Shown one piece after another: positions 28,528 through 37,739 of a DNA stretch of 37,923 nt. The stretch covers positions 1 to 37,923 of the forward strand of contig JAHWKB010000007.1 of the NCBI GenBank assembly GCA_019348115.1. Reading direction: 5' to 3'. Origin of the DNA: Actinomycetota bacterium. GTDB taxonomy: Bacteria > Actinomycetota > Nitriliruptoria > Nitriliruptorales > Nitriliruptoraceae. The notes below the pieces were generated by a model. That model was not told the origin of the DNA and made no database searches. It saw only the letters and a program-made list of their open reading frames with translations. Position numbers and translations under genes: made by a program. Positions within the stretch are counted from its first letter, which is position 1. Each line of letters begins with the position of its first letter.

Positions 28528-29691
28528 ATGTCGGCGAACCCGACCAACTACCTGGCCGTCATCAAGGTCGTCGGCATCGGCGGCGGCGGCGTCAACGCGG
28601 TGAACCGCATGATCGACGCCGGCCTGCGGGGGGTCGAGTTCATCGCGATCAACACCGACGCCCAGGCCCTGCTCATGTCGGACGCCGACGTGAAGCTCGA
28701 CATCGGGCGCGACCTGACCCGCGGTCTCGGCGCCGGCTCGGACCCGTCGGTGGGCCGGCAGGCCGCCGAGGACCACCGCGACGAGATCGTCGAGGTCCTG
28801 AAGGGCGCCGACATGGTGTTCGTCACCGCCGGCGAGGGCGGTGGCACCGGCACCGGCGGTGCGCCCGTCGTGGCCGAGGTCGCCAAGGAGCTCGGCGCGC
28901 TGACGATCGGCGTGGTCACCCGCCCGTTCACCTTCGAGGGCCGCAAGCGCAGCCTCCAGGCCGAGGAGGGGATCGCGGGTCTCAAGGACAAGGTCGACAC
29001 GCTCATCATCATCCCGAACGACCGGCTGCTGCAGATCGCCGACGGCGAGACCTCGGTCGTGCAGGCGTTCCGGCTCGCCGACGACGTGCTGCTCCAGGGC
29101 GTGCAGGGCATCACCGACCTCATCATGACGCCCGGCCTGATCAACCTCGACTTCGCCGACGTCCGCACGGTGATGAAGGACGCCGGGTCCGCGCTCATGG
29201 GGATCGGCAAGGCGCGCGGCGAGAACCGCGCGCTGGAGGCCGCGAAGTTCGCCATCAGCTCGCCGCTGCTCGAGGCGTCCATCGACGGCGCGCGCGGCGT
29301 CCTCCTCATGCTCGCCGGCGGCAGTGACCTCGGCCTGTTCGAGGTCAACGAGGCCGCCGACGTCATCACGAAGGCGGCGCACGCCGACGCCAACATCATC
29401 TTCGGTGCCGTGATCGACGACTCGCTGGGTGACGAGGTCAAGGTCACCGTGATCGCCGCCGGCTTCGACAAGTACGAGCCGCTCGAGCAGGAGGGCGCGT
29501 TCGTCTCCGGCCAACCGGCGGACGAGGGTCGCCACCTCGCGCCCGCCGCTCCGTACCTCGACGAGGACGACGAGGACGACGAGGACGACGTCTTCCGCTC
29601 GTCCGGCCCGAACGACGCCGAGCGCCGTCCGTCGGTCGTCATCGACGCCGAGACGGACGACGACCTGGACATCCCGTCGTTCCTGCGGTGA
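28528..29691 (+). CDS. ftsZ: Tubulin-like division GTPase FtsZ
   Basis: 387 residues. It forms the Z-ring. GTPase domain: [16 protein letters not shown], tubulin signature [15 protein letters not shown]7-loop region DFADVRTVM. After about residue 316 comes a short variable linker with an acidic run D345-D354 encoded by a 9-bp tandem repeat, then the conserved C-terminal peptide [10 protein letters not shown] that binds SepF. Start ATG 28528 has GAGGAG seven bases upstream. It is the first gene after a 179-bp gap with its own likely promoter, and overlaps pgeF by GTGA. Confidence 0.98.
29560..29589 (+). repeat. 9-bp tandem repeat (GACGAGGAC) inside ftsZ
   Basis: Three full copies and a third of a fourth encode the D/E run in the FtsZ linker. 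Units keep the frame, so copy-number change would alter linker length without breaking the gene. Confidence 0.8.
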
Positions 29692-30497
29692 CCGCCGTCG
29701 ACGACCGCGACGCCGCGCCGGCGGGAGCCGACGGGCACGCGCCGCTGGTGCTGCCCGTCTCCCTCGGACCCGGTGTGGACGGCTGGTTCACCGGCCGTGC
29801 GCCGGCGGATGCGCCGCCGCCGGCCGTGGGCGCCGCCGGGAACCTCTCCCACCGCCGACCGCACGAGCCCCCCCGTCTCGCCGCCGACCGGCGTGCGGCG
29901 TTCGGCCGCATGGGCCTCGACGCAGGCGACGTCGTCTGGATGCAGCAGGTCCACGGTGCCGAGGTCGCCGTCGTCGACGAGCACACGCCGCGGGGCGCCG
30001 AGGTCCGCGGGGTCGACGCCCTCGTCACCGTCCAGGCCGACCGGCCGATCGCCGTCCAGGTCGCCGACTGCGTCCCGGTCCTGCTGTCCTCGCCCGCCGG
30101 GGTGGTCGCGGTGGCCCACGCGGGCCGTCGCGGTGTCGAGCTCGGCATCGTGCCGGCGACCCTCGCGGCGATGGAGGATCTCGGGGCGGAGCGGGCGTCC
30201 GTCGCCGCGGCCATCGGGCCCGCGATCGGTGGCTGCTGCTACGAGGTCCCGTCCGAGATGCGCGAGGACCTCTCCGACGACCACCCGGTCGCGAGCGGCA
30301 CGACGAGCTGGGGCACCCCGTCGCTCGACCTCCCTGCCGCCGTCGCGGAGGTCCTCCGCGACGCCGGCGTCGGCGACGTGGCGCGCGTCGGCTCGTGCAC
30401 CCGCTGCGACGACGAAGACCGCTGGTTCAGCCATCGGGCCGATCCCACGACGGGCCGCCAGGTCGGGGTCGTGGTGCGCCGCGGGGGCCAGGCATGA
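29688..30497 (+). CDS. pgeF: PgeF/YlmD-type laccase-domain protein
   Basis: 269 residues. The three metal/active-site positions of the family are seen: His in QQVHGAEV, Cys in VADCVPVLL and His in VAHAGRRG, plus [11 protein letters not shown]. The family (YfiH, YlmD, LACC1) has purine-nucleoside phosphorylase/adenosine deaminase activity, and in E. coli PgeF (YfiH) is reported to edit wrong residues in peptidoglycan precursors, which would suit this location. Start GTG 29688 overlaps the ftsZ stop and has no good binding site, so it is coupled to ftsZ. Confidence 0.92.
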
Positions 30498-31255
30498 CGA
30501 CCGCCACGTCGACGGGTCCCGACGCGGTCGCCGCCCGCGTCGACGAGGTCCGCGCCCGCATCGCGCGGGCGTGCGCCGCCAGCGGCCGGCGGCCGGCCGA
30601 CGTGCAGCTGGTCGCGGTGTCGAAGACCCACCCGCCGGCTGCCGCGCAGGCGATGGTCGACGCGGGCGTGGCCGACCTCGGCGAGAACCGGGTGCGCGAG
30701 CTCCTCGACAAGCGGCCGCACGTGACCGGGGCGCGGTGGCACTTCGTCGGCCAGCTCCAGTCCCGCAAGGCACGCGACGTCGTCGGGGCCCAGGTCCTCG
30801 TCCACTCGGTCGACCGCCGCTCGCTGGCGGATGCGCTGTCGCGGCGTGCCGGGGACGCCGGCGCGGTCCAGCGGATCCTCGTGCAGGTCAACGTCGGCGA
30901 CGACCCCGCGAAGGGTGGGTGCGACGTCGACGGATGCCTCGACCTCGTCGCGTACGCTCGCGACCTGCCGAACCTCGCGGTGGAGGGACTGATGACCGTG
31001 CCGCCGCTCCCGCCCGGACACGCGGACGGGGACGTGGACGAGGACGAAGGCTGGGGCGAGGCGGCGAGGCCGCACTTCGCGCGGTTGCGGAGGCTGCGGG
31101 ACGACGCACGAGCACGGTGGCCGGAGGTCGTCCACCTCAGCATGGGGATGAGCGCGGACCTCGAGGTGGCCATCGCCGAGGGGGCGACGATGGTCCGGGT
31201 CGGGACGGCGCTGTTCGGTCCCCGGGGTGACAGCGCGTGGACCTCCCACCGGTGA
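30494..31255 (+). CDS. yggS: YggS/PLPBP-type pyridoxal phosphate homeostasis protein
   Basis: 253 residues, alanine-racemase-like barrel without the racemase C-domain. The PLP lysine is in VAVSKTHPP; LGENRVREL, WHFVGQLQSRK, LVQVNVGDD and LSMGMSADLEVAI follow the family. It buffers free PLP. There is an acidic Pro-rich insert (PPLPPGHADGDVDED) where most members are short. Start ATG 30494 overlaps the pgeF stop. The ftsZ-pgeF-yggS-sepF-yggT-divIVA order is widely conserved in Gram-positive bacteria. Confidence 0.95.
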   Translation: MTTATSTGPDAVAARVDEVRARIARACAASGRRPADVQLVAVSKTHPPAAAQAMVDAGVADLGENRVRELLDKRPHVTGARWHFVGQLQSRKARDVVGAQVLVHSVDRRSLADALSRRAGDAGAVQRILVQVNVGDDPAKGGCDVDGCLDLVAYARDLPNLAVEGLMTVPPLPPGHADGDVDEDEGWGEAARPHFARLRRLRDDARARWPEVVHLSMGMSADLEVAIAEGATMVRVGTALFGPRGDSAWTSHR

Positions 31256-31280: not shown

Positions 31281-31796
31281 ATGAGCGGTGTGTGGCGCAA
31301 GACCCTGGTCTACCTGGGTCTCGTCGAGGAACCGGACGAGCACGACGACCTCCCCGAGCAGTTCGGCGGCGGGTACGCCGGCGAGCCCGACGAGGGCGAC
31401 CCGCGCCAGCCGGCACGGACCGCGGCGCGTCCCGCCGAATCCCCGGGCAACGTCCGGCGGCTGCCCGTGCCCGAGTCGGGCAGCCCGCACGTGCGCGCCA
31501 TGCAGGGCAACGTCCGCGTGGCGGTCCTGCCGATCACGGCCTTCGAGGAGGTCGAGCGCGTCGGCGAGCGCTACCGCCAGGGCCAGCCGGTGCTGTTCGA
31601 CCTGCGCGACGCGGACGGCACCGTCGCTCGCCGGGTCCTCGACTTCGTGAGCGGCGTCACGTACGCGCTCCGCGGCCGGCTGCTGCCGGCGGGCAACCGC
31701 TGCTTCCTGCTCGTGCCGGACGGCGTCGACATCCCGCTCGACGAGCGGCACCGCCTGTCCGACATGGGCTACCGCGTGTCGGGTCGGGACGCCTGA
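31281..31796 (+). CDS. sepF: FtsZ membrane anchor SepF
   Basis: 171 residues. The N-terminal amphipathic helix MSGVWRKTLVYLGLVE binds membrane; an acidic/Pro linker of about 60 residues leads to the SepF core (VAVLPITAFEEVERVGERY, VLFDLRDADG, VARRVLDFVSGVTYAL), which binds the FtsZ tail. SepF replaces FtsA as Z-ring tether in Actinomycetota. ATG 31281 has AGAGGAG seven bases upstream. Confidence 0.96.
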   Translation: MSGVWRKTLVYLGLVEEPDEHDDLPEQFGGGYAGEPDEGDPRQPARTAARPAESPGNVRRLPVPESGSPHVRAMQGNVRVAVLPITAFEEVERVGERYRQGQPVLFDLRDADGTVARRVLDFVSGVTYALRGRLLPAGNRCFLLVPDGVDIPLDERHRLSDMGYRVSGRDA

Positions 31797-31800
31797 GCCG

Positions 31801-32055
31801 ATGACCCTCGTCCTCTGTCTCCTCCTGCAGGCGTACTGGCTGGTCCTCTTCCTGCACGTGATCTTCTCGTGGGTCCCACGGCCGCCCGAGCCGATCCTCC
31901 CGGTCGTCCACGGGGTGCGGGCGCTCGTCGAGCCGCTCGCCGCCCCGCTGCGGCGGACGATCCCGCCGCTCCGGCTCGGCGGCATCGGCCTCGACCTGTC
32001 CATCATCGTGCTGTTCCTGGCCATCTGGATCCTCCAGATCGCCCTCTGCCGCTGA
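31801..32055 (+). CDS. yggT: YggT family membrane protein
   Basis: 84 residues with two hydrophobic helices (LLLQAYWLVLFLHVIFSW and LSIIVLFLAIWILQIAL) around a Pro/Arg-rich loop (VEPLAAPLRRTIPPL), the YggT pattern. The role is not settled; linked genes suggest division or envelope functions. ATG 31801 is four bases after the sepF stop with a weak binding site, so coupling is likely. Confidence 0.92.
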   Translation: MTLVLCLLLQAYWLVLFLHVIFSWVPRPPEPILPVVHGVRALVEPLAAPLRRTIPPLRLGGIGLDLSIIVLFLAIWILQIALCR

Positions 32056-32068
32056 CAACGGAGCCCCG

Positions 32069-32863
32069 ATGGGTCTCACGCCCGACGACATCATCAACTA
32101 CCCGCTGAAGCAGGCGGTGCGGGGCTACTCGGTCCCCCAGGTCGACCAGCTGCTCGACCAGGTGGCCGACACGGTCGAGAAGCTGAGCACGGAGGTGGAG
32201 GACCTCCGGCGCCGGCTGCGTCAGTCCGAGGACCGCCTCGCGGCGTCCTCCGAGACCGAGACGACCCTGAAGCGGACGCTCGTCACGGCTCAGCGCGCGG
32301 CCGAGCAGTCGCTCGAGGAGGCGCGTGAGGAGGCGGCCGGGATCGTCAGCAGCGCGCGCCGGGAGGCGGCGAGCGTGCTCGAGGAGGCACAGCTCGACGC
32401 CGAGGAGCTGCGGGTCGAGGCGCTCAAGGCGGCGCGTGCCGAGGAGGCCGAGATCCGCCGTCGCCGCCAGTCCCTCGAGGGCCACATCGAGGCGCTGCGG
32501 ATCTTCGAGCGCGAGTACCGGGCGCGGCTGCGCGGCCACCTCGAAGAGCAGCTGCGCACCCTCGAGGAGGTGCAGGGCGACCGGCCCGACGGCGGCCGGG
32601 GGGCGCCCCGGCTCGACGACGGCGAGGACCTCGACGGTGACCTGCCGGTCGAGCCCTCGCACCTCGGTGGCGTGAGCATCCCCGACGAACCGGAGCTGCG
32701 CGTGCGCGTGCGCGGTCGTGGCGACGACCGGCCCGAGGACGGGGCGTCGACGGACCGGGACGATGATCCGTCCGACGACGGCGGTGAGGTAGGGTCCCGC
32801 CCGTCCGAGGACGAGCCGGACGAGACGGACGGTCGTGCCAAGCGCCGCCGCTCCGTACCGTAG
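32069..32863 (+). CDS. divIVA: DivIVA/Wag31-type polar and septal protein
   Basis: 264 residues. The membrane-binding N-domain is MGLTPDDIINYPLKQAVRGY with V17-R18 at the curvature-sensing tip, followed by YSVPQVDQLLDQVADTVEKL. A long coiled coil covers about 30-165, and the last ~95 residues are acidic and probably disordered, ending in a basic RAKRRRSVP. It scaffolds polar growth or division machinery by sensing negative curvature. ATG 32069 has GGAG at five bases. It is the last conserved gene of the dcw string. Confidence 0.95.
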   Translation: MGLTPDDIINYPLKQAVRGYSVPQVDQLLDQVADTVEKLSTEVEDLRRRLRQSEDRLAASSETETTLKRTLVTAQRAAEQSLEEAREEAAGIVSSARREAASVLEEAQLDAEELRVEALKAARAEEAEIRRRRQSLEGHIEALRIFEREYRARLRGHLEEQLRTLEEVQGDRPDGGRGAPRLDDGEDLDGDLPVEPSHLGGVSIPDEPELRVRVRGRGDDRPEDGASTDRDDDPSDDGGEVGSRPSEDEPDETDGRAKRRRSVP

Positions 32864-32869
32864 GCTCCG

Positions 32870-32975
32870 GGAGACGAGCGTCCTCGGGCGTTGCAACCGC
32901 CGGTCCGGCGGGGGAGTACCGCGCCGTGGAGACCACGGCCGGCAGTGACGAGGGGTCGCTGCCCGAAGTCCGAGC
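32870..32975 (+). ncRNA. Hairpin-rich gap between divIVA and the HhH membrane protein
   Basis: The 136-base gap has three strong successive stems: CCGCCG-GTC-CGGCGG at about 32898-32912, GCCGTGG-AGA-CCACGGC near 32922-32938, and GGCAGTGAC-GAGGG-GTCGCTGCC near 32940-32962 (one G-U pair). A less structured stretch with CCGAGCAACCGACAAACAGGGG runs up to the start codon. It may be a divIVA terminator plus leader, or a cis-acting RNA. I match it to no known riboswitch class. Confidence 0.4.
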
Positions 32976-32999
32976 AACCGACAAACAGGGGTATGACCG

Positions 33000-33935
33000 G
33001 TGATCGTGCTGAGCCTGGTCCTGGTGATCGTCGCCGCGGTGACCCTCATCGCCGGCTTCTTCCAGGATGAGAGCCTGACCCTCATCTACGTGGCGATCGT
33101 GTCGTGCGTGCTCGCGATGGCGTTCCTCGGTATCGGGGTGCTCCAGCGCAAGCGCAGCGGCAAGCCGTCGACCTCTGGCGCGTACGGATCGGGGGGCTCG
33201 TCGTCGAGCGCGTCCGCGTCCTCCGCCTCGACGTCGTCCGCGCCCGCACGCGGCTCCTCGTCGTCGATCGCGCCGGTCCGCCCGAAGGAGCCCATCGGCT
33301 CGGCGACCGGCTCCGGTGACACCGCCGGCTCGGACGACGGGAGCACGCAGGTGATCGTCCGCAAGACCGCGGCGGCCGATGCCGCCAAGCGCGGTTCGGG
33401 CGCGACCAAGAAGAAGGCCGTCGTCAAGAAGGCCGTCGCCAAGAAGTCCACCGCGCGCGCCGCCAGCTCCGAGCCGCCGTCGGCGGAGGCCGTGGCCGAG
33501 CGCCAGGACGACGCGCCGGCGAAGAAGACCGCGGGCACCAGGAAGGCGAGCGCGGCGAAGAAGGCCTCGACGAAGGCTGCGGCCGCGAAGAAGTCGCCGC
33601 GCGCCGGCGCCAGGAAGACGACCGCGAAGACGTCCTCGACGAAGAAGTCGACGGCCAGGAAGGCGACGGCGAAGCAGTCGACGGCGAAGAAGGCGCCCGC
33701 GAAGAAGTCGCCGGCGAAGAAGTCGCCGGCGAAGAAGGCCAGCGCCGGTGGCGGCAAGGCCGAGGCGCGCGCGATCCTCGCGGGCATCAAGGGCCTCGGC
33801 CCCGCCAAGCAGGACGCCGTCCTCGCCGAGTTCGGCTCCGTCGCTGCCCTCCGTCAGGCGAGCGAGGAGCAGCTCGCCGACATCAAGGGCGTCGGTGCCG
33901 GCCTCGCGTCGTCCATCAAGGACGCGGTGCGCTGA
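33000..33935 (+). CDS. Membrane-anchored helix-hairpin-helix protein with histone H1-like tail
   Basis: 311 residues in four parts. (1) Two membrane helices, about 2-21 and 27-48, followed by QRKRSGK, which puts both ends in the cytoplasm. (2) A Ser/Gly-rich linker, about 53-115. (3) A Lys/Ala-rich tail of about 135 residues with many AKK(S/A)(T/P)A repeats like the C-terminal tails of histone H1 or mycobacterial HupB. (4) A UvrC/RuvA-type double helix-hairpin-helix at 258-311 (ILAGIKGLGPAKQDAVLAEFG, then LADIKGVGAGLASSI). Parts 3 and 4 should both bind DNA without sequence preference, so it may tie nucleoid to membrane. Start GTG 33000 has AGGGG about eight bases upstream. Its tail overlaps the convergent peptidase gene by 20 bp. 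Confidence 0.85.
   Translation: MIVLSLVLVIVAAVTLIAGFFQDESLTLIYVAIVSCVLAMAFLGIGVLQRKRSGKPSTSGAYGSGGSSSSASASSASTSSAPARGSSSSIAPVRPKEPIGSATGSGDTAGSDDGSTQVIVRKTAAADAAKRGSGATKKKAVVKKAVAKKSTARAASSEPPSAEAVAERQDDAPAKKTAGTRKASAAKKASTKAAAAKKSPRAGARKTTAKTSSTKKSTARKATAKQSTAKKAPAKKSPAKKSPAKKASAGGGKAEARAILAGIKGLGPAKQDAVLAEFGSVAALRQASEEQLADIKGVGAGLASSIKDAVR
33701..33738 (+). repeat. 15-bp tandem repeat in the Lys/Ala tail
   Basis: GAAGAAGTCGCCGGC occurs twice in tandem (33701-33715, 33716-33730) with a partial third copy. It encodes the KKSPA units and lies in a longer run of degenerate GCGAAGAAG repeats from about 33540. Confidence 0.75.
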
Positions 33936-34541
33936 CCGAGCCGGCGTCGAGCCAGCGGCGGGCGGCCAGCCGCGCGCCGCGCTCGATGGGGTTGTCGCGG
34001 TAGCCGTAGCGCGCGGCCGACCAGACGTAGACGGGGAAGAGCAGGGGACCGAGGCGCTCGGCCTGGCGGACGTGCCCGGCCTCGTGCGCCAGCACGACCG
34101 GCGGCGTCCGCCCGTAGGTGCTGACCACCACGTGGCCCATCGCGTTCGCGCCGGCGCCGACGACCCGCAGGAGGCGTGCCGAGCCGGCCCGGGCACCCTC
34201 GATCACGAGGCAGCCGTGCTCGTCGTCCCACCGCGCCCGACCGCCGGTCGTCGCGCCGAGGGCGAGGCCCACCGCCGTCAACGGTGACGCCCAGGCCATC
34301 GCGGCGACGCGCCCGAGCGCGCTGGTCGGGGCGGCAGGCGTCCAGGTCGCGAGCCGGCGCGCGAGCGCGCCCTCGGGGGAGGACGGGAGGATCACGGCGG
34401 CCGCGCCCGCGCGCGGCAGCGCTCCCGCACGGATCCGTCGCGCCTCCCGGCGCTGGCGGATCGCCCCGACGAGCCCCGCCCCGAGCGTCGCCGTGAGCGC
34501 CACCCAGGCGAGCGTGGCGCTCCGCGGCGCGGATCCGCCGC

Positions 34542-34545
<4 letters not shown>
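33916..34545 (-). CDS. HEAGH zinc-metallopeptidase-like membrane protein
   Basis: 209 residues. N-terminal hydrophobic segment at about 9-28, a second at about 87-103, then a core with H154-E-A-G-H158 (zincin HExxH) and a possible third ligand E188 in YRDNPIERGA, 30 residues later. The LAHEAGHVRQAERLG ... NPIE layout recurs in uncharacterised bacterial proteins and is distantly like DUF4157/M48-type zincins; activity is not proven. Start GTG 34545 overlaps the ileS stop by GTGA, so it is probably expressed with ileS. It converges on the HhH gene. Confidence 0.75.

Positions 34546-37739
<3,194 letters not shown>

Follow-up and report, generated by a model that had tools for sequence, protein, structure and literature searches.

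Proteins that tether DNA to the membrane, or that anchor the chromosome with a link to DivIVA, are already known; the hairpin family described here has no name. In Mycobacterium tuberculosis (Mtb), the KAAK/PAAK-repeat NAP Rv3852 carries a TM anchor, binds the N-terminal region of Wag31 (DivIVA) and affects the polar position of Wag31 (PMC8233713). In B. subtilis the DNA-binding protein RacA is described as fastening the chromosome to the pole marked by DivIVA (PMC8233713). GlpR combines TM helices with oppositely charged disordered regions, of which the tail is basic; its apparent Kd is 43 μM for Wag31 and 15 μM for the DivIVA domain of Wag31 (PMC10522489). SepG, from the same operon as the gene studied here, affects nucleoid compaction (PMC4852450). 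By analogy, Rv3852, RacA, GlpR and SepG make a tether role plausible for the protein that we describe here, the product of gene X in an actinobacterial contig; the 37,923-nt stretch analysed is called the window throughout.

X resembles Rv3852 in its basic region of the DNA-binding KAAK/PAAK type, its predicted membrane anchoring and its proposed link to DivIVA/Wag31 (for Rv3852, PMC8233713). However, Rv3852 is anchored by a single C-terminal helix, has no HhH and is restricted to slow-growing mycobacteria. X has an N-terminal hairpin and a C-terminal (HhH)2 domain instead of that anchor, and it scored 20.9 bits against the Rv3852 family (NF050153, ‘H-NS’ of M. tuberculosis; cut-off 100), through its Lys repeats only. 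GlpR/SepX is likewise an actinobacterial membrane protein with helices and a basic disordered C-terminal tail (IDR2 in GlpR), but it differs from X by three TM helices, a long acidic first disordered region, another locus and the absence of a DNA-binding domain; the window protein gave no match to the GlpR/SepX profile NF050099 (cut-off 150 bits) in a search to E 1. RacA is soluble, built of an HTH and a coiled coil, and specific to sporulation; its likeness to X concerns the hypothetical mode of working only, and we regard X as a member of neither the RacA nor the Rv3852 family. To our knowledge many actinobacteria lack recognisable Min and Noc systems, and X is a testable candidate for the coordination, in these bacteria, of where the chromosome lies with the septum and the pole marked by DivIVA.

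Gene X at the end of the dcw cluster

Gene X (33000–33935, +) encodes 311 aa from a GTG start and closes a complete dcw cluster composed of rsmH, an ftsI-type PBP gene, murE, mraY, murD, ftsW, murB, ftsQ, ftsZ, pgeF, yggS, sepF, yggT and divIVA. A first-pass annotation had read the gene as following ftsZ-sepF-yggT-divIVA; profile matches agree with this order and insert pgeF and yggS. The features of the locus are:

28528–29691, +, ftsZ (profile match)
29688–30497, +, pgeF/ylmD (profile match)
30494–31255, +, yggS, PLP-binding (profile match)
31281–31796, +, sepF (profile match)
31801–32055, +, yggT/ylmG/sepG (profile match)
32069–32863, +, divIVA (PF05103, E 4e-26), 136 bp upstream of X
32987–32991, +, AGGGG, likely ribosome-binding site by sequence, 8 nt ahead of the GTG
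33000–33935, +, gene X, hairpin + Lys/Ala tail + (HhH)2 (ORF, domains, orthologue L068)
33916–34503, −, convergent gene with HEAGH motif, sharing 20 bp with the 3′ part of X; neighbourhood conserved throughout the class
34542–37691, −, ileS, downstream of X

The GC3 of X (0.955) is like that of the neighbouring genes. X is not a chance ORF, because a same-genus genome carries a 276-aa orthologue (L068) in the same place, 73% identical in the family alignment and with an intact frame. The HEAGH gene between X and ileS, which gave no Pfam match, is a possible metallopeptidase remnant. Promoter and terminator scans found no signal, a plasmid search gave no match and a PHROGs search nothing useful. 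A 25-codon GTG ORF (window 32926–33003, +) has its TGA overlapping the GTG start of X; it may be a chance ORF or a leader for translational coupling.

The combination of two N-terminal membrane helices, a Lys/Ala tail and a C-terminal (HhH)2 domain in 311 aa, which had been proposed from the letters of the sequence, is borne out by hydropathy, composition, Pfam and AF2. Residues 1–20 and 26–48 are strongly hydrophobic (Kyte–Doolittle up to 3.0 and 2.5) and are followed by QRKRSGK. Along the gene the predicted parts are:

33000–33059, +, TM helix 1, residues 1–20, conserved family N-terminus (hydropathy, AF2, alignments A1/A3/A5/A7)
33060–33074, +, short acidic extracytoplasmic loop, residues 21–25, FQDES (loop charge, 69 homologues)
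33075–33143, +, TM helix 2, residues 26–48, then QRKR, positive inside (hydropathy, charge, AF2)
33156–33353, +, Ser/Gly/Ala-rich disordered linker (composition, AF2)
33354–33365, +, IVRK short linear motif, copy 1 (motif count in f1 linkers)
33408–33761, +, Lys/Ala-rich H1-like basic tail (composition; PF07382 sub-threshold)
33420–33431, +, VVKK short linear motif, copy 2 (motif count in f1 linkers)
33614–33737, +, tandem repeats of 15 bp, in frame and encoding Lys/Ala units (repeat analysis)
33750–33932, +, (HhH)2 domain, residues 251–311, hairpins IKGLGPAK and IKGVGAGL (Pfam, AF2, Foldseek)

AF2 gave a poor model from the single sequence, whereas a 10-sequence alignment yielded helices at 2–20 and 26–52 and, beyond a disordered central part, a compact (HhH)2 of five helices at 251–310 with pLDDT 92–94. 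The region of residues 119–254 (136 aa) is predicted to be disordered and contains 24% K and 29% A with a net charge of +34. The tail had been called H1- or histone-like: its Lys/Ala richness and charge stand, but PF07382 HC2 reached only 20.1 bits against a gathering score of 40, and ‘histone-like’ denotes no more than a resemblance. The 15-bp tandem repeats are the likely source of tail length variation. All seven f1 (home-family) members with a linker, including those without a Lys tail, carry a VV[RK][RKP] or IVRK motif, which is absent from the f2 member. The motif occurs in shuffled linkers with about 1–6% chance each and was noticed post hoc, so that these numbers are indicative only; it could be a partner-binding motif.

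The C-terminus matches PF14520 HHH_5 (34.6 bits, cut-off 27; E 2.7e-8), PF12826 HHH_2 (30.1 bits, cut-off 27) and PF00633 HHH. The description of this domain as UvrC-type holds, with the UvrC C-terminus as nearest NCBIfam relative and UvrC, DisA, XPF and Hef as best Foldseek matches (for UvrC, XPF and DisA probability 1.00, rmsd 1.1–2.1). With a largely disordered query the Foldseek E-values stay modest and go no lower than 0.0088. The whole-protein UvrC equivalog gave 38.4 bits, far below its cut-off of 451. From what is known of these families, the Lys/Ala tail and the (HhH)2 domain would both bind DNA without sequence preference; HhH domains and Lys tails have other possible ligands as well, among them RNA, polyphosphate and acidic proteins. 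The fold would also suit a membrane-attached factor for DNA repair or DNA uptake, with an (HhH)2 that recognises DNA when it is damaged or being taken up, after the manner of UvrC, DisA or ComEA. UvrC, XPF and DisA share the (HhH)2 fold and family with X, and ComEA joins a TM segment to HhH as X does. However, in X the domain sits on a membrane hairpin without a nuclease or other catalytic domain, its HhH is predicted from the charges of 69 homologues to lie on the cytoplasmic side, opposite to that of ComEA, and the gene keeps a constant place behind divIVA rather than near repair or competence genes. We therefore consider this explanation very improbable.

A membrane hairpin family behind divIVA

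Relatives were searched with the hairpin as query, since the Lys tail hampered whole-protein searches, using profiles from alignments up to A7. A search with HhH only mostly returned UvrC, and a contig scan with the full-length X protein had a UvrC (L005) as its only match. Within the order (36 genomes) the hairpin was matched in 10 genomes from two families, in every case directly behind sepF-yggT-divIVA. The hairpin profile matched 23 of 66 genomes in the class and, in a sample of 397 genomes of the phylum Actinomycetota, 69 genomes from 47 of 237 genera. The match of the window hairpin to the A7 profile (E 6.8e-20) is strong by construction, the window being a row of A7. X combines the profile match with a place between divIVA and ileS, which together define the divIVA-locus hairpin family.

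Homologues scattered away from division genes had been named as an observation that would refute the tether hypothesis. Instead, of the 59 genomes among the 397 that reach E ≤ 1e-5, 56 carry the hairpin gene between divIVA and ileS; two of the 56 (G287 and G071) were placed by the downstream ileS only, as the contig begins just upstream. The other three comprise two off-position matches (G109/L179, G328/L235) and one at a contig edge (G249/L182). The chance that a random match falls in this few-kb stretch of a 2–6 Mb genome is well under 1%, the profile search being blind to position. Hairpin matches with E between 1e-5 and 1e-3 lay mostly elsewhere and are probably due to chance. Weak off-divIVA matches (L179, L190–L193, L235, L236, L238, L240–L244) were treated as chance or unrelated and excluded from the tail counts below; taken by itself, L179 4483–4674 (G109), about 63–70 aa long and away from the divIVA locus, looks clearly related to the hairpin (E 2e-13). 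Over 65 loci, X starts a median of 71 bp after the stop codon of divIVA; the gap is below 150 bp at 63 of them, and four pairs overlap by 4 bp. This spacing looks like that of an operon. Operon neighbourhood alone is no proof that X binds DivIVA.

The hairpin is the most conserved part of the family (alignments A1, A3, A5 and A7). A non-membrane N-terminus, the second observation that would have refuted the hypothesis, is not what we found: over 69 homologues the loop between the helices holds 8 positive and 74 negative residues and the stretch after TM2 249 positive and 81 negative ones, in keeping with the positive-inside rule. We infer from this charge pattern an N-in/C-in topology, which agrees with the earlier expectation that the C-terminal parts face the cytoplasm. 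Neither Pfam nor NCBIfam yielded a family for the hairpin in profile searches, in line with the earlier view that the architecture has no named family, and no paper on it was found in a literature search that covered mainly open-access journals. Judged by sequence, the hairpin is an unnamed, actinobacteria-wide family in which hairpin and position are conserved and the tail is not.

Many relatives in the home family-level group have divIVA without X, and X is therefore dispensable. In two genera of the home family, g11 (L080, L083, L084, L093) and g3 (L094, L096), the sepF-yggT locus lacks both divIVA and X, and no surveyed locus that had clearly lost divIVA carried X. At L187, sepF and yggT are present and divIVA was not detected by tblastn. 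Class members outside the home order (L115, L117, L118, L121–L125) show a short W[SKRA]GA-type motif (for example ATWKGA or ASWSGA) just past the hairpin; in the home order, residues resembling GYGPGA stand near this position.

Nine f29/g69 genomes carry a Mycobacterium-like version of X, a protein of 107–140 aa with a strongly acidic tail and no tail of the DNA-binding type. A 118-aa X of this kind stands next to a DivIVA recognised by the Wag31 equivalog; the DivIVA of L176 scores 382 bits against its cut-off of 260. The place of this version beside Wag31 is presumably that of Rv2144c. Rv2144c of M. tuberculosis is thus probably the mycobacterial member of the hairpin family; it is likely to share its hairpin and its place beside DivIVA with the window protein, but it differs in its acidic tail and lacks a DNA-binding module. 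It has been listed among exported TM proteins of unknown function (PMC5405230), and a near-unstudied Mycobacterium gene beside wag31 hereby gains a family context.

Exchangeable tails and the proposed role of X

Tail modules were counted over 69 loci, with overlapping totals: (HhH)2 occurs in 12 and Lys/Ala in 17, while 9 loci have a Cys domain of the Ada-like kind and 5 a GRP motif resembling an AT-hook. As exclusive classes these are Lys/Ala with (HhH)2 (6, window included), (HhH)2 without Lys (6), Lys/Ala alone (7), Ada-like (5), Lys with Ada-like (3), AT-hook-like (3) and mixed with AT-hook-like (2). The DNA-binding-type tails are spread over 10 family-level groups (f1, f2, f3, f6, f11, f14, f44, f57, f67 and f74). 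No recognisable tail of this type was found in 37 of the 69 loci, 12 of them f29 with mostly acidic tails. Four of the 37 are incomplete: L116, L125 and L178 are open-ended, and G009 L079 is the N-terminal half of a contig-split gene, whose other half (in L097) holds a Lys tail and HhH.

The Cys domain has the consensus VVxxPxRxxFHxxxCRYA...GYxPCxxCKP with the spacing HxxxC...CxxC, which is similar to the zinc site of Ada, CxxxC...CxxC. Pfam Ada_Zn_binding was hit below threshold in 5 of 8 Cys-domain members (best E 0.0043; first member 15 bits, cut-off 23), a PDB profile search with the domain found nothing, and the relation to Ada is tentative. The ends in f44 (RRGRPPKPKP) are called AT-hook-like from this short motif only. 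L166 passes the PF07382 HC2 gathering score (44.8 versus 40). In L167 and L232 two repeats precede the Lys tail; those of L167 are similar to part of the Rv1109c lipid-droplet family. The g33 proteins (L118, L121, L122, L124) end in a proline run (PPPPPPPPA or similar) without HhH or Lys tail, and f4/g33 relatives have a Pro-rich tail and none of the DNA-binding type.

In the home family the folded (HhH)2 domain is more conserved than the Lys tail, because G012 and G029 (L075/L086) keep it after the Lys tail is gone; elsewhere the Lys tail varies in length. Two points thus go beyond the first-pass annotation: the Lys tail is dispensable, and the family is phylum-wide. In L073 (G007) the tail is made of some 20 near-perfect AKKAT units, which suggests that its length changes rapidly by slippage. 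Home-family stubs of 70–86 aa occur in G027, G017 and, by position, G016. Losses, stubs of 51–94 aa in several lineages and the tandem 15-bp repeats would suit a relic, a hairpin once needed whose tails are drifting, functionless low-complexity additions in high-GC genomes. Such decay is improbable: the hairpin motif, the operon spacing and the (HhH)2 residues are conserved across families, and the same-genus orthologue keeps its frame intact at 73% identity.

We rate the chances as about even that X is a membrane hairpin at DivIVA sites whose tail serves as a DNA tether in the window protein and in about half of its relatives. The two TM helices would anchor X in the cytoplasmic membrane and leave both termini in the cytoplasm, as the charge pattern suggests. 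Made beside DivIVA, the protein could be concentrated at the DivIVA-marked pole or septum, where its tail would hold the nearby chromosome to the membrane, or sense the chromosome and tune DivIVA. The Lys stretch would provide a weak, long-reach electrostatic contact and (HhH)2 would grip the DNA backbone; either may be lost. DNA binding, DivIVA contact and localisation of X are all read from sequence and context, and the recurrence of unrelated DNA-binding-type tails (HhH, Lys/Ala, Ada-like, AT-hook-like) on the same hairpin favours DNA binding. The nucleoid–membrane tether of the first-pass annotation thus keeps the support of position and of the conserved hairpin, but about half of the relatives lack a DNA-binding-type tail. 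Since these include all Mycobacterium-like proteins, with acidic tails, and the f4/g33 proteins with Pro-rich tails, tethering of the nucleoid cannot be the core function across the whole hairpin family.

The main rival explanation is that the hairpin is a regulator of DivIVA or the divisome like GlpR/SepX: both the membrane part and the charged disordered tail would contact DivIVA, FtsZ or others, the tail would act by its charge, and DNA binding would be incidental or absent. The hairpin alone is common to all members, and tails may be acidic, Pro-rich (f4/g33) or missing; the Mycobacterium-like X matches the SepX/GlpR profile, weakly (20.6 bits, cut-off 150), and GlpR with its oppositely charged disordered regions binds the DivIVA domain of Wag31 (PMC10522489). 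However, charge alone cannot explain why a folded (HhH)2 is kept without a Lys tail (L075, L086, L123, L115), nor why modules of the DNA-binding type, unrelated to one another, appear repeatedly at this end. The acidic and Pro-rich tails favour the regulator for the family, whereas (HhH)2 and the recurring modules favour the tether for X, and we regard the regulator as the less likely explanation here. Regulator and tether are compatible, with a common DivIVA-site hairpin whose tail was recruited to DNA in some lineages. For the phylum as a whole we tentatively propose, with somewhat less than even confidence, that the Actinomycetota hairpins behind divIVA, Rv2144c included, are DivIVA partners with an exchangeable socket at the cytoplasmic end, forming a modular tether from chromosome to pole or septum. 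The socket would hold unrelated modules by lineage, namely (HhH)2, Lys/Ala H1-like, Ada-like metal-binding or AT-hook-like ones.

Other (HhH)2 proteins

A Lys/HhH protein of the same assembly (L002/L099) was considered as a paralogue of X and rejected, its sister-genome counterpart in L098 being the C-terminus of a coiled-coil protein. This protein (L098, reverse complement 1–2751) has at least 916 aa and ends in a Pro/Ala/Lys linker and (HhH)2; its gene lies directly upstream of whiB and of a 1016-aa glycosyltransferase-like gene. The contig of the window's own assembly (L099/L002 3–428) has the C-terminus only of the coiled-coil (HhH)2 protein. A 471-aa protein (L100 4147–5562, −, G002:C1) has an ectodomain-like N-terminal part, then a TM helix, and (HhH)2 at its C-terminus (HHH_5, 51 bits); by these predicted features it represents another type of membrane protein with a terminal (HhH)2.
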